DNA of 64,000 nucleotides from NCBI RefSeq assembly GCF_001544795.2, contig NZ_FCOI02000001.1, positions 434,001 to 498,000 of the forward strand, given 5' to 3'. The notes below the pieces were generated by a model. That model did no database searches, had not been told where the DNA came from, and saw only the letters and a program-made list of their open reading frames with translations. Shown here one piece after another: positions 19,013 through 25,213 of this stretch. Made by a program: the position numbers and the translations under genes. Source of the stretch: Caballeronia temeraria (GTDB lineage: Bacteria > Pseudomonadota > Gammaproteobacteria > Burkholderiales > Burkholderiaceae). The first letter of the stretch is position 1; each line of letters begins with the position of its first letter.

Positions 19013-21142
<2,130 letters not shown>

Positions 21143-21149
21143 TCACATC

Positions 21150-21719
21150 ATGAAGAATCTTTTGCGTCCGATGCTGGTGTTGTTCGTCGCGCTGACCGTT
21201 ATCACTGGCTTGATTTATCCGGCGGTCGTGACCGCGATCGGGCAGGCGGCGTTTTCGCATCAGGCGAATGGCAGTCTGATCGAGCGGGATGGCCGTGTCG
21301 TCGGGTCGGAGGTCATCGGGCAGCAGTTCGATGCGCCTCGGTACTTCTGGGGGCGCTTGTCGGCGACGACGCCGAATCCGTATAACGCGGGGAGTTCGAG
21401 TGGCTCCAATCTCGGACCGACGAATCCCGCCCTCGCCGCTGAGATCAAGGCGCGTATCGCCGCGTTGCATGATGCCGATCCGGGCAATGGCGCGGATGTT
21501 CCGGTTGATCTTGTTACTTCGTCGGGGAGTGGGCTCGATCCGGAGATCAGTCCGGCGGCGGCGGAGTATCAGGTGGCGCGGGTGGCGAAGGCGCGGGGGA
21601 TGTCGATCCCGCAGGTCGAGGCGATGGTTGCTCGTGCTACGAGCGGGCGGCAGTTTGGTGTCTTTGGGGAGCCTAGAGTGAATGTGCTTAAATTGAATCT
21701 TGCTCTTGATCGGGAGTAG
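21150..21719 (+). CDS. kdpC: K+-transporting ATPase subunit KdpC
   Basis: A 189-residue protein with one N-terminal transmembrane helix (residues ~5-28) and a periplasmic domain, with family signatures [66 protein letters not shown] and [10 protein letters not shown]. KdpC raises the affinity of the pump. The gene starts 7 bp after kdpB. The codon usage of its last third is less GC-biased at third positions (many -GT and -TT codons) than that of kdpA or kdpB. Confidence 0.97.
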
Positions 21720-21781
21720 TGGTTGGAGTCGCTCGCCTGGGCTTGTATGAAATCCTGCTTTCGTGTCGGTCTATTAGCACT

Positions 21782-21828
21782 GCCCCTGTGCGGGGCGGCA
21801 GTCACTTTCTTTGCTGCTGCAAAGAAAG
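21782..21828. repeat. Paired hairpins in the left arm of the kdp inverted repeat
   Basis: Hairpin A: GCCCC/GGGGC at 21782-21796 (loop TGTGC). Hairpin B: CTTTCTTTGC/GCAAAGAAAG at 21805-21828 (loop TGCT). Only 8 nt separate them. Confidence 0.8.
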
Positions 21829-22296
21829 TAACCAAAGAAAGCAGCTTTTCAGGCCCGCGGTCACACGTAGTTTGGGTAGTTCTCTCGTTCAAGGGGGCAC
21901 TCGCCTAAAGTGTGCCCTCGTAGGCCCCGCCGGGCTTGGATCGCGCACGGTCTGACTAGCTAGGAGTTTGAGGGCGCTGGTTCAGCACGAAAGAGTTCCG
22001 GCACAGCGCTGCGCGCTGCCGCCGGGTCTGCCAGGGAAACCAACCTGATGCATGTGCGGTGAGATGGAAGTGCTAGCAAAGAAGCACACGCGGCCCCGAT
22101 GGACCCATCGGCCGCGCAGCGGGCCGGAGCCTTTTTGTGCTGAACCAGTTTGTTGGGCGGTGCGATGTGACAGACCGTGCGCGATCCAAGCCCGGTTGGG
22201 CCTTTGAGGGCACTCTTTAGGCGAGTGCCACGGTGGACGAGAGAACTACCCAAATTGCGTGTGACCGCGGGCCTGAGAAGCTGCTTTCTTTGGTTA

Positions 22297-22343
22297 CTTT
22301 CTTTGCAGCAGCAAAGAAAGTGACTGCCGCCCCGCACAGGGGC
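22297..22343. repeat. Paired hairpins in the right arm of the kdp inverted repeat
   Basis: This is the mirror of the left-arm pair: CTTTCTTTGC/GCAAAGAAAG at 22297-22320 and GCCCC/GGGGC at 22329-22343, with identical stems and complementary loops. Confidence 0.8.
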
Positions 22344-22423
22344 AGAGCAAATAGACCGATAAGAAAACAGGATTTCACGAACTTCAAGCGCCAGCAAAAG
22401 CCAAAAAGCGAAAAACGAAAACC

Positions 22424-25213
22424 ATGCCCCGCCCAACCCCCGACGAACTCCTCGACAAACTGCACCGCGAGGAAGAAAAGCGCCATCGCGGAAGACTGAA
22501 GATCTTCTTCGGCGCATCCGCCGGCGTAGGCAAGACCTTCGCGATGTTGCAAGCCGCCCGCCGCCGCCGCGATGAAAGCGTGGAGGTCGTCGTCGGCGTG
22601 GTCGAAACGCATGGCCGCAAGGAAACGCTCGCCTTGGTCGAAGGCCTCGAAACACTGCCGCCTGCGCGCATCGAATATCGCGGCCGGCTGCTCGCCGAAT
22701 TCGACCTCGACGCCGCCCTAGCAAGAAAACCTCAACTCATCCTCGTCGACGAACTCGCTCACTCGAACGTCCAGGGCTCGCGCCACATGAAGCGCTGGCA
22801 AGACGTGCAAGAGCTGCTCGACGCGGGCATCGACGTCTATACGACCGTCAACGTCCAGCACCTCGAAAGCCTGAACGACATCGTCGGCCGCATCACCGGG
22901 ATTCGCGTCTGGGAGACCGTGCCCGATCGCGTCTTCGATCTCGCCGATGAAGTCACCCTCGTCGACCTCCCGCCCGAAGAACTGCTCGACCGTCTGCGCG
23001 AAGGCAAAGTCTATCTGCCGACGCAGGCCGAGCACGCCGTGCGCAACTTCTTCCGCAAAGGCAATCTGATCGCGCTACGCGAACTCGCGCTGCGCCGCAC
23101 GGCAGACCGAGTCGATGCCCAAATGCGCGAATACCGCGCCGATCAGTCGATCGAACGCATCTGGCGCGCGCGAGAAAGGCTCATCGCGTGCATCGGGCCG
23201 GGACCGGAAAGCGCGACGCTCGTGCGCGCAGCCGCGCGCCTTGCCGCAGCGCTCAAGGCCGACTGGCTCGCGGTGTACGTCGAAACGCCGAAGCTGCAGC
23301 GCCTCTCCGACGATCAACGCCGCCGCACCCTCGACGCCCTCAAGCTGGCCTCCGAGCTCGGCGCGGAAACCGTCACGCTCGATGGCGCCGATGCCGCCGC
23401 GACGCTCATCGACTATGCGCACATGCGCAACGTGTCGAAGCTCGTGGCGGGCGCATCGGGAAGCAGCGGATGGCAGCGTCTCATCGCGCGCCCGGTGAGC
23501 GAGCGCATCATCCGACAAGGCTCGGATATCGACGTCACGCTGGTCTCGACCGGCGCGCGCGACGAACAACGCCGCACGCTCGCGCAAGCCTTCGATACAT
23601 GGCACGATGGCGGGCACTCGTCGCCGCGCGCCTATGTCTACGCACTCGCGATCGGCGCCGGCATCACGCTCGTCGCCGATATGCTCGCCGCGCGTCAGTT
23701 CGCCATCACGAATCTCGTGATGCTCTATCTGCTCGGCGTGATCTTCGCGGCAGTGCGGCTTGGGCGCGGGCCAGGCGTGATGCTGTCGTTTCTGTCGGTG
23801 GCCGCGTTCGATTTCTTTTTCGTGCCGCCCGAACTCTCGTTTTCCGTGACGGACACGCAATATCTGCTGACCTTCGTCGTGATGCTGCTGACATCGCTGA
23901 CCATCAGTCATCTGACGTCGAGCCTGCGGCGCGAGGCGCGCATCGCATCGCAACGCGAGCGGCGCACCGGCGCGATGTACGCGATGACCAAAGAACTCGG
24001 CGCCGCGCTGATGACCGAGCAGATCATCGAGATCGGCACGCGGCACGTCGCGGAAGTGTTTCAGGCCAAGGTCGCGATGCTCTTGCCCGATGCCGCCGAA
24101 AAAGTGCGCCAGAAAGTAGACGAGCCGAATCCCGATGTGACGCTCGATGCCCAATGTCTCGATCTCGATATCGCGCAATGGGTCTACGACCAGCAGAAGC
24201 CCGCGGGCCGCGGCACGGAGACCTTGCCCGCGAGTCAGGCGCTCTATCTGCCGCTCAAGGCGCCGATGCGCACGCGCGGCGTGCTCGCGCTCGCGACGGA
24301 ACGCGAAGCCGAACTCGCGGTGCCCGAGCAGCGTCGCATGATCGAAACGTTCGCGTCGCAGATCGCGCTCGCGCTCGAACGCGTGCACTACGTCGAGATC
24401 GCGCAGGACGCGCTCGTCAATATGGAATCGGAGCGGCTGCGCAACTCGCTCCTCTCCGCGATATCGCACGATCTGCGCACGCCGCTCACATCGATCGTCG
24501 GCTTCGCTTCGGTGCTGGAGGAGCAGGCGCGCGATGCGGGCGGCAATACGGAAGCGTCGCAGGAACTCGTGCACGCGATCCACGAGGAAGCGCTGCGCAT
24601 GAGCGGGCTCGTCACGAATCTGCTCGACATGGCGCGCCTGCAGGCGGGCGCGATCCGCCTGAATCGTCAATGGTCGATGCTCGAAGAAACCGTAGGCGCC
24701 GCGCTCGCGACATCGCGCCGGGTGCTCGCGGGCCGTCCCGTGCAGACGCGCGTGCCGGCGAATCTGCCGCTGCTGCAACTCGACGCCGTGCTGATGGAGC
24801 GCCTCTTCGCGAACCTGCTCGAAAACGCCGCGAAATACACGCCGCCCGGCACGCCGATTCAGATCGGCGCGGCGCTGGAGCACGACGGCGAAGGGCGCTT
24901 CGTGCGCGTGTGTATCGACGATGAAGGCCCGGGCGTGCCCGCCGGCATGCAGAACCGTCTCTTCGACAAATTCACGCGCGGCGAGAAGGAGTCGGCGCAA
25001 CCGGGCATCGGGCTGGGTCTCGCGATCTGCCGCGCGATCGTCGAGGCGCATGGCGGGCAGATCGGCGTTGCGAATCGCGAGGACGCGAACGGACACGTGC
25101 TCGGCGCGCGCTTCTGGTTCACGCTGCCGGCAAACGACGCGCCGCCCGAAGAACTGCCGCCCGACGAAGATGTCGATTCAAAGGCCGCAGCGCCGGGAGC
25201 GGGCGATGTCTGA
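22424..25213 (+). CDS. kdpD: Osmosensitive K+ channel sensor histidine kinase KdpD
   Basis: A 929-residue sensor kinase controlling kdp expression with KdpE. The N-terminal KdpD domain has Walker A at residues 30-38 (GASAGVGKT) and LILVDELAHSNVQGSRH. A USP-like domain (~250-380) follows, then four closely spaced transmembrane helices (~405-500), a GAF-like region (~530-660), phospho-acceptor His682 in SAISHDLRTPLTSIVG, and an ATPase domain with DDEGPGVPAG and GIGLGLAICRAIVEAH. The ATG is preceded by an A-rich stretch without a clear Shine-Dalgarno site. It overlaps kdpE by 8 nt. Confidence 0.97.
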   Translation: MPRPTPDELLDKLHREEEKRHRGRLKIFFGASAGVGKTFAMLQAARRRRDESVEVVVGVVETHGRKETLALVEGLETLPPARIEYRGRLLAEFDLDAALARKPQLILVDELAHSNVQGSRHMKRWQDVQELLDAGIDVYTTVNVQHLESLNDIVGRITGIRVWETVPDRVFDLADEVTLVDLPPEELLDRLREGKVYLPTQAEHAVRNFFRKGNLIALRELALRRTADRVDAQMREYRADQSIERIWRARERLIACIGPGPESATLVRAAARLAAALKADWLAVYVETPKLQRLSDDQRRRTLDALKLASELGAETVTLDGADAAATLIDYAHMRNVSKLVAGASGSSGWQRLIARPVSERIIRQGSDIDVTLVSTGARDEQRRTLAQAFDTWHDGGHSSPRAYVYALAIGAGITLVADMLAARQFAITNLVMLYLLGVIFAAVRLGRGPGVMLSFLSVAAFDFFFVPPELSFSVTDTQYLLTFVVMLLTSLTISHLTSSLRREARIASQRERRTGAMYAMTKELGAALMTEQIIEIGTRHVAEVFQAKVAMLLPDAAEKVRQKVDEPNPDVTLDAQCLDLDIAQWVYDQQKPAGRGTETLPASQALYLPLKAPMRTRGVLALATEREAELAVPEQRRMIETFASQIALALERVHYVEIAQDALVNMESERLRNSLLSAISHDLRTPLTSIVGFASVLEEQARDAGGNTEASQELVHAIHEEALRMSGLVTNLLDMARLQAGAIRLNRQWSMLEETVGAALATSRRVLAGRPVQTRVPANLPLLQLDAVLMERLFANLLENAAKYTPPGTPIQIGAALEHDGEGRFVRVCIDDEGPGVPAGMQNRLFDKFTRGEKESAQPGIGLGLAICRAIVEAHGGQIGVANREDANGHVLGARFWFTLPANDAPPEELPPDEDVDSKAAAPGAGDV

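Follow-up and report, generated by a model that had tools for sequence, protein, structure and literature searches.

What occupies the 704 nucleotides that separate kdpC from kdpD in this Caballeronia genome, and how does it relate to the genes beside it? We analysed the 64,000-nucleotide stretch of DNA that contains this gap (the window). A preliminary description of the sequence had reported a foldback with near-identical inverted arms, lying between kdp genes. Pfam confirms both flanking genes (Table 1), and the arms are as close as described: 190 of the 207 positions in their main blocks are complementary (the maximum in 200 two-arm shuffles was 72 of 207), and the best block of 88 nt (21780-21867) matches at 87 of 88 positions. 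Both arms also contain the same two local hairpins, as had been noticed. These hairpins make up a unit of about 100 nt, and the element is built from two inverted copies of this double-hairpin unit, one at the outer end of each arm. The arms were thus laid out correctly, and only the spacer needs revision: it had been put at about 138 nt and is nearer to 120 nt, because an inner inverted pair lengthens the arms. Folded as single-stranded DNA, the 649 nt form one long hairpin with an energy of -301 kcal/mol, as compared to -119 kcal/mol (sd 5.3) for 20 shuffled sequences.

When we checked the list of open reading frames by eye, no transposase was evident within the block, in agreement with the preliminary description. 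Spurious open reading frames run through the arms (21569-21892 on the minus strand and 22233-22499 on the plus strand of the window) and encode VTFFAAAKKVT. This peptide is also found in reading frames of relatives, which may be annotated as hypothetical proteins. The possibility that the second arm is an assembly artefact had been raised. This is unlikely because six other assemblies (L079, L080, L081, L082, L083, and L085) have an element of nearly full length in this place. It is true that assemblies break at the repeat, and many partial copies lie at contig ends in the window's own genome.

Table 1. Features of the kdpC-kdpD region, in window positions
Feature	Position	Strand	Remarks
kdpC	21150..21719	+	PF02669, 262 bits
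kdpD	22424..25213	+	PF02702, 329 bits
Whole foldback element, one copy of the family	21741..22389	.	
Left arm, main block	21748..21954	+	190/207 complementary to right arm
Right arm, main block	22171..22377	-	
Inner part of left arm	21977..22002	+	Inverted pair I2, 26 nt, 85%
Inner part of right arm	22123..22148	-	Inverted pair I2
Central spacer	22003..22122	.	Bounded by the inner arms
Unit hairpin 1, left (GCCCC-N5-GGGGC)	21782..21796	+	Stem of at least 5 in 306/316 units
Unit hairpin 2, left (CTTTCTTTGC...GCAAAGAAAG)	21801..21832	+	Inverted pair I5; structure kept across units
Unit hairpin 2, right	22293..22324	-	Inverted pair I6
Unit hairpin 1, right	22329..22343	-	
Outward-facing match to Rfam RF02421 Bp1_684 (candidate sRNA)	21726..21811	-	40.3 bits (cut-off 44), E 2.2e-7
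Outward-facing match to Rfam RF02421 Bp1_684 (candidate sRNA)	22314..22430	+	38.1 bits (cut-off 44), E 8.5e-7
Left footprint (end of kdpB, and kdpC)	20740..21740	+	Top strand G/T-rich, C/A-poor; extent approximate
Right footprint (start of kdpD)	22390..23390	-	Bottom strand G/T-rich; extent approximate

A dispersed family of foldback repeats

The element belongs to a repeat family with many copies. The window's own genome has at least 26 full-length copies (40 of 73 candidates were scored), plus partial ones, and the core hairpin occurs 77 times in it. Matches to the element were found in 37 of 61 genomes. Because part of the candidates were scored, the copy counts in the window's own genome, in the 61 genomes, and in Caballeronia sp. 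NK8 (G011) are lower bounds. The core hairpin was present in 38 of 101 relatives and in 1 of 44 genera, with up to 215 occurrences per genome, and a reversed control gave 0 matches. A looser form of the hairpin was found more widely in the order, in 24 of 300 genomes and 17 of 134 genera. These order-wide loci include 33 single units and 10 inverted pairs that are 366-1033 nt apart, five of them at 448-537 nt. In a plasmid collection, 15 records matched (8 from Paraburkholderia, 6 from Caballeronia, and 1 from Burkholderia), and phage records had no match to the element. The KdpD protein of the window is up to 95% identical to that of named Caballeronia. Recent origin had been offered as a reason for the high identity of the arms; it is not supported, because the copies in the genome are 84-90% identical to the copy in the window.

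The elements usually lie close behind genes (a median of 24 nt past stop codons). Among the 59 elements with clear gene orientations, the neighboring genes were convergent in 24 cases, co-directional in 32, and divergent in 3, as compared to 101, 333, and 88 of 522 control junctions. (We used a crude gene caller, and 16 of 75 elements were unclear and were left out.) Divergent pairs are avoided and convergent pairs are favored, so insertion or survival of the elements is not random. Among the NK8 elements listed, 21 of 40 are on the 1.49-Mb replicon C2 of this 9.2-Mb genome, which is a seeming enrichment on a secondary replicon. Two elements of different subfamilies, from two genomes (L049 4001-4609 and L077 4001-4636), are flanked by genes that measure 2238 and 2226 nt in both cases, and this may be another site that is shared or reused. 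One genome (G025; contig C231 6872-7719 and L303 2497-3330) has paired units about 800 nt apart instead of the usual 490 or so, which is a longer form of the element. Several elements are split near the hairpins by insertion sequences, several families of which may target the repeat: the same 388-aa rve transposase splits NK8 elements at L188 1818-2984 and L190 3518-4684, another NK8 element has an rve/IS481-type insertion (L180 3568-4713), and there is an IS110-type insertion in G007 (L295 3088-4134). In genomes that do not have the long element, a single unit is found in one conserved intergenic place (L032, L033, L035, and L037, at about 1501-1561). This unit is directly upstream of a gene that starts with MSLTELKVPDIGDF (at 1641 in L033), which we take to be the pyruvate dehydrogenase E2 gene.

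How do the copies stay alike? In a tree of 78 elements (3 of 81 were under 520 nt and were left out), the 36 copies from NK8 cluster together with a support of 0.99, and so do the 26 copies from the window's own genome, if weakly (0.47). Elements at the kdp locus of different species are scattered across the tree. For example, the element of L080 lies with copies from its own genome (G017), and the window's element lies with the copies from its own. Copies group largely by genome and not by locus, which fits gene conversion, another of the explanations proposed in the preliminary description. Repeated insertion could mimic this grouping; against it, the filled Caballeronia sites are one clade on the KdpD tree (which does not include the window).

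An arm was no closer to its partner in the same copy than to arms of other copies, either for the 26 copies in the window's own genome (0.775 versus 0.780, permutation p = 0.86) or for the 36 in NK8 (0.759 versus 0.762, p = 0.77). Therefore, the palindrome seems to be kept by the sharing of variants across the family, and not by matching within each copy. The preliminary description had also suggested selection for RNA structure. As far as one long RNA duplex is concerned, this is not supported, because the arms of one copy do not covary. The suggestion fares better for the short local hairpins, which are kept as structures across the order. When we compared 316 distinct units, pairing beyond the core stem of hairpin 2 was seen at the second position out in 97.8% of them and at the third in 98.4%, versus 82% and 58% expected (these counts include related copies and are inflated by them); the first position outside the stem pairs in just 29%. 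Hairpin 1 has many different paired sequences. The unit may therefore have a role as an RNA or single-stranded DNA hairpin. The preliminary description also proposed that the element might uncouple the expression of kdpD from that of kdpFABC.

Both outer ends of the element resemble the RF02421 model, and the gathering score of 44 was reached by neither end nor by any of 12 further loci. At the gathering score, Rfam found nothing in the 64-kb window, and the loci from across the order had only a chance-level match to Xist. No sigma-70-like promoter was found at the element. There are 3 terminator-like sites in 901 nt, one of them within the spacer, versus 1.2 (sd 1.2) in shuffled sequences, and in the aligned copies, runs of T often precede the elements rather than follow them. 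Separately, two Paraburkholderia-type loci have guanidine-II riboswitch matches downstream of kdpD (L129 8687-8733, 48.4 bits; L133 8612-8658, 47.2 bits).

A composition footprint in the flanking genes

The main feature of this locus is absent from the preliminary description: the genes that flank the element carry a footprint in their base composition. To its left and its right alike, the strand that reads toward the element (the toward strand) is rich in G and T and poor in C and A. The bias peaks at the edge of the element, fades over 1-1.5 kb, and extends through genes and their third codon positions. Across the 26 copies in the window's own genome, the AT skew of the toward strand measures -0.84 on the left and -0.73 on the right at a distance of 10-20 nt, weakens to about -0.2 at 100-200 nt, and is about zero beyond 2 kb; the GC skew has the opposite sign. 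The same footprint is seen around 39 copies of NK8, 6 copies of G017, and 4 copies of G001. To summarize the skew on both sides, we computed a two-sided score, which averaged 0.30 for 75 elements versus 0.0008 (sd 0.078) for 14,520 control positions in 40 stretches of NK8, one of which (L352) contains an element. Of the 75 elements, 91% were above the 95th percentile of the control and 83% were above the 99th, and 3 (4%) had scores of zero or below. Nowhere else in the 64-kb window does this score peak as high as at the element.

Pairs in genomes of the window's family have the long footprint, and for 9 pairs from other families, in five genomes, the skew lies mainly within about 150 nt. Around single units the footprint appears to be weaker than around pairs, judging from seven loci only, with GC skews at 100-400 nt on the outer side of -0.03 (L065), -0.10 (L067), +0.02 (L298), +0.12 (L302), +0.23 (L307), +0.02 (L310), and -0.02 (L315). 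We had considered that single units have a one-sided footprint and rejected this, as several apparent singles are elements that were split by insertion sequences. The strength of the footprint was not correlated with the identity of the arms (rho = 0.15, p = 0.27; 59 of the 65 elements from NK8 and the window's own genome).

The kdp locus offers a comparison of sites with and without the element. The preliminary description had proposed to check whether kdpC and kdpD are uninterrupted in relatives, and only some lineages have the interruption: among 81 kdpC-kdpD sites, 17 have the element (10 Caballeronia-type sites, including the window, and 7 others) and 64 do not. At 14 empty Caballeronia sites, the two genes overlap slightly or are at most 34 nt apart. 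At third codon positions, the excess of G+T over C+A at the end of kdpC averages 0.51 for 13 filled sites versus 0.09 for 63 empty sites, and at the start of kdpD it averages -0.41 for 17 filled sites versus -0.06 for 64 empty sites. Deep within kdpD, it is 0.10 in both groups. So at the empty orthologous sites, the skew is nearly absent on average. This is a comparison at one locus, and the ranges of the two groups touch (the lowest filled site is at 0.24 and the highest empty site at 0.32 for kdpC; the highest filled site is at -0.21 and the lowest empty site at -0.32 for kdpD). The footprint at filled kdp sites is present in both Caballeronia and Paraburkholderia-type genomes.

The direction of change can be seen by comparing 10 filled sequences to 4 close empty ones (40 pairs of living sequences, which are not independent). 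On the toward strand of the first 450 nt of kdpD, we counted 635 C-to-T differences versus 68 in reverse, 768 C-to-G differences versus 164, and 386 A-to-G differences versus 117. Past 900 nt, the ratios for these and other changes are mostly around 1 (0.47 to 1.83). Third-position divergence among the filled sites is 0.24 and 0.35 in the first two bins of 150 nt, versus 0.20-0.21 past 900 nt. This rise is only modest and gives no clear sign of a strong process that acts today. No target-site duplication was visible in the aligned flanks or by comparing filled and empty kdpC-kdpD sites, although the flanks are so altered that one could be masked.

How the footprint may have arisen

We see about an even chance that the DNA hairpin or cruciform of this dispersed foldback repeat opens or breaks the double helix time and again, with faulty repair leaving a footprint of about 1 kb on each side. 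The footprint would then be mutational. Once the DNA has been broken or opened there, resection would leave the toward strand single: this is the strand with its 3' end facing the element, and 5'-to-3' resection from both ends of a break would spare it. Damage to the exposed strand or error-prone fill-in would introduce the changes, and either the sister or another copy of the repeat would serve as the template for repair; the use of other copies would also homogenize the family. The family itself would have spread by transposition.

A route without any break would be a replication gap. If the polymerase halts at a hairpin in its template strand, then a single-stranded gap is left 5' of the hairpin, up to the length of an Okazaki fragment, and might be filled with errors. 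This would fit the strand polarity and the 1-1.5 kb length of the footprint, hairpins on either strand would account for both sides, and in a cell without SbcD, the hairpins would persist. But hairpins in the lagging-strand template should bias one side according to the direction of the fork, and for 27 elements of NK8, the GC excess was equal on both sides (0.121 versus 0.124, p = 0.63). (Elements that are short or split by insertion sequences were not counted, nor were those of contigs C3 and C6 or of one stretch whose direction is unclear.) The AT excess was larger on the side opposite to that expected from lagging-strand hairpins (p = 0.036), and we consider replication gaps to be unlikely. 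A strictly symmetric break does not predict this slight difference between sides either, which counts against the break-and-repair reading. A Chi-like, one-sided model was set aside on the basis of the fork-direction result and the seven one-unit loci. Mutation linked to transcription, in which the coding strand of highly transcribed genes that end at the element would drift in composition, is very improbable. Most of the elements do have a gene that reads toward them, yet among the sides with a gene within 300 nt, the skew has the same sign for 38 sides with genes that read toward the element and 21 sides with genes that read away (GC +0.11 and AT -0.13 at 100-300 nt for the latter), and kdpD itself reads away.

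The remaining two explanations do not require that the element alters its neighbors by mutation. The units might function as protein-bound hairpins, as a small RNA, or as the 3' ends of mRNAs, so that the composition of the flanks is a by-product of selection. The pairing in hairpin 2, the likeness of the outer ends to RF02421, and the location just past stop codons all favor this, but the stem position next to the core rarely pairs, the arms within a copy do not covary, no sigma-70-like promoter was found, and such a function does not account for third codon positions being skewed as far as 1 kb from the element on either side; overall we find it improbable as the source of the footprint. Alternatively, the element may cause nothing and may insert where the strand composition already flips. 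The preference for convergent over divergent gene pairs (as judged with the crude gene caller) and the occupation of kdpC-kdpD in two distant lineages are in line with such a target preference. Against this, the 64 empty sites show little skew, albeit at one locus and with ranges that touch, and the skew fades smoothly from the edge of the element. We rate a target preference as quite improbable.

If breaks do occur, what makes them? SbcCD was our candidate for the cutter and was dropped. In the window's own genome, no protein matches SbcD above the cut-offs of PF12320 or TIGR00619, and TIGR00619 has partial matches only (56.9 and 29.2 bits; the cut-off is 77.65). As there is no SbcD at these cut-offs, SbcCD is an unlikely source of breaks here, and one has to suppose that some other enzyme cuts or that no break is involved. 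We compared 37 genomes of the genus: of the 24 with elements, 3 have SbcD, and of the 13 without, 11 have it (Fisher p = 2.6e-5; G003 and G012 were counted as element-bearing from DNA matches, and both lack the exact hairpin). Similarly, among 49 named genomes (leaving out L121), SbcD is present in 2 of 30 with the hairpin pattern and 11 of 19 without (p = 1.3e-4). With a threshold of 15 copies for the family, the association has p = 0.047. In a test on the KdpD tree, which has 7 independent pairs, on average 2.6 agreed, 0.2 opposed, and 4.2 were uninformative (median sign-test p = 0.5). So loss of SbcD often accompanies the family, the tree-corrected test is not significant, and we view this loss only as a lead to a condition for spread. 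Four genomes have both SbcD and elements (G010, G016, G031, which is the genome of L088, and the genome of L133); that of L133 has SbcD, 277 hairpins, and a strong footprint at kdp.

Somewhat more tentatively, we propose that genomes of Caballeronia and Paraburkholderia carry tens to hundreds of self-homogenizing foldbacks that may act as break hotspots and directional mutators, rewrite the composition and codons of their neighbors for about 1 kb on each side, and accumulate when the hairpin nuclease SbcCD is lost. If so, then one genome would contain dozens of natural replicates of a fragile palindrome, with a graded and strand-specific mutational record and with empty orthologous sites as controls. 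It would become directly testable whether natural bacterial palindromes leave lasting mutational scars that steer the evolution of neighboring genes, and where genes next to such repeats have unusual codon usage, neither selection nor gene transfer would have to be the cause.

Comparison with known systems

Neither this repeat nor such a footprint turned up in our literature search, which covered open-licence papers and not subscription papers or preprints. The family is best read as a REPIN-like repeat. REPINs are inverted pairs of REP sequences that are linked to RAYT transposases, and single REPs look like remnants, according to the available text of PMC3116915. Like REPINs or BIMEs as described there, the element is an inverted pair of conserved hairpin units with a spacer, is intergenic, has no internal gene, and is present in tens to hundreds of copies per genome. 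It also has the terminal inverted repeats and multiple copies of a MITE. Unlike REPINs, which are tens of nucleotides long, it has a unit of about 100 nt and a total length of about 650 nt, and its arms are extended into one long palindrome. Compensatory changes between halves are reported for REPINs and were not seen here (p = 0.86 and 0.77), and the available text of PMC3116915 describes no kilobase-scale composition footprint. A single weak Y1_Tnp match (34.4 bits) is present in the window's own genome; across the genus, 36 of 37 genomes have one, irrespective of elements. By eye, no GTAG- or CGTC-type terminal tag is evident beside the GCCCC stem. In this respect, the family resembles the untagged REP-like palindromes, which are high-copy intergenic stem-loops without a conserved terminal tag, and which are mentioned for Bordetella and others in PMC3733652; the main text of that paper names no Burkholderia family.

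The outer ends of the element match RF02421 (Bp1_684, a Burkholderia sRNA candidate) in the outward direction over most of the model. The element scores below the cut-off, however, and the repeat and its footprint are outside of the model. The main text of a related 2012 paper on sRNAs (PMC3521395) does not name this candidate.

As a long palindrome that can form a hairpin, the element can also be compared to fragile palindromes. In E. coli, a 246-bp interrupted palindrome in the chromosome is processed as a hairpin, with SbcCD acting on structures of this kind, and SbcCD and RecA guard against inverted duplications, as far as the available text of PMC3315005 goes; the genome that carries our element has no SbcD at the cut-offs. 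In yeast, inverted repeats cause breaks and raise the rate of mutation on both sides, via resected single-stranded DNA and an error-prone polymerase (available text of PMC3681665). Those repeats were engineered into a eukaryote, with reporters up to 8 kb away, and they are opened by MRX and Sae2, whereas the element described here, known only from its evolutionary trace, is a natural repeat of a bacterium.
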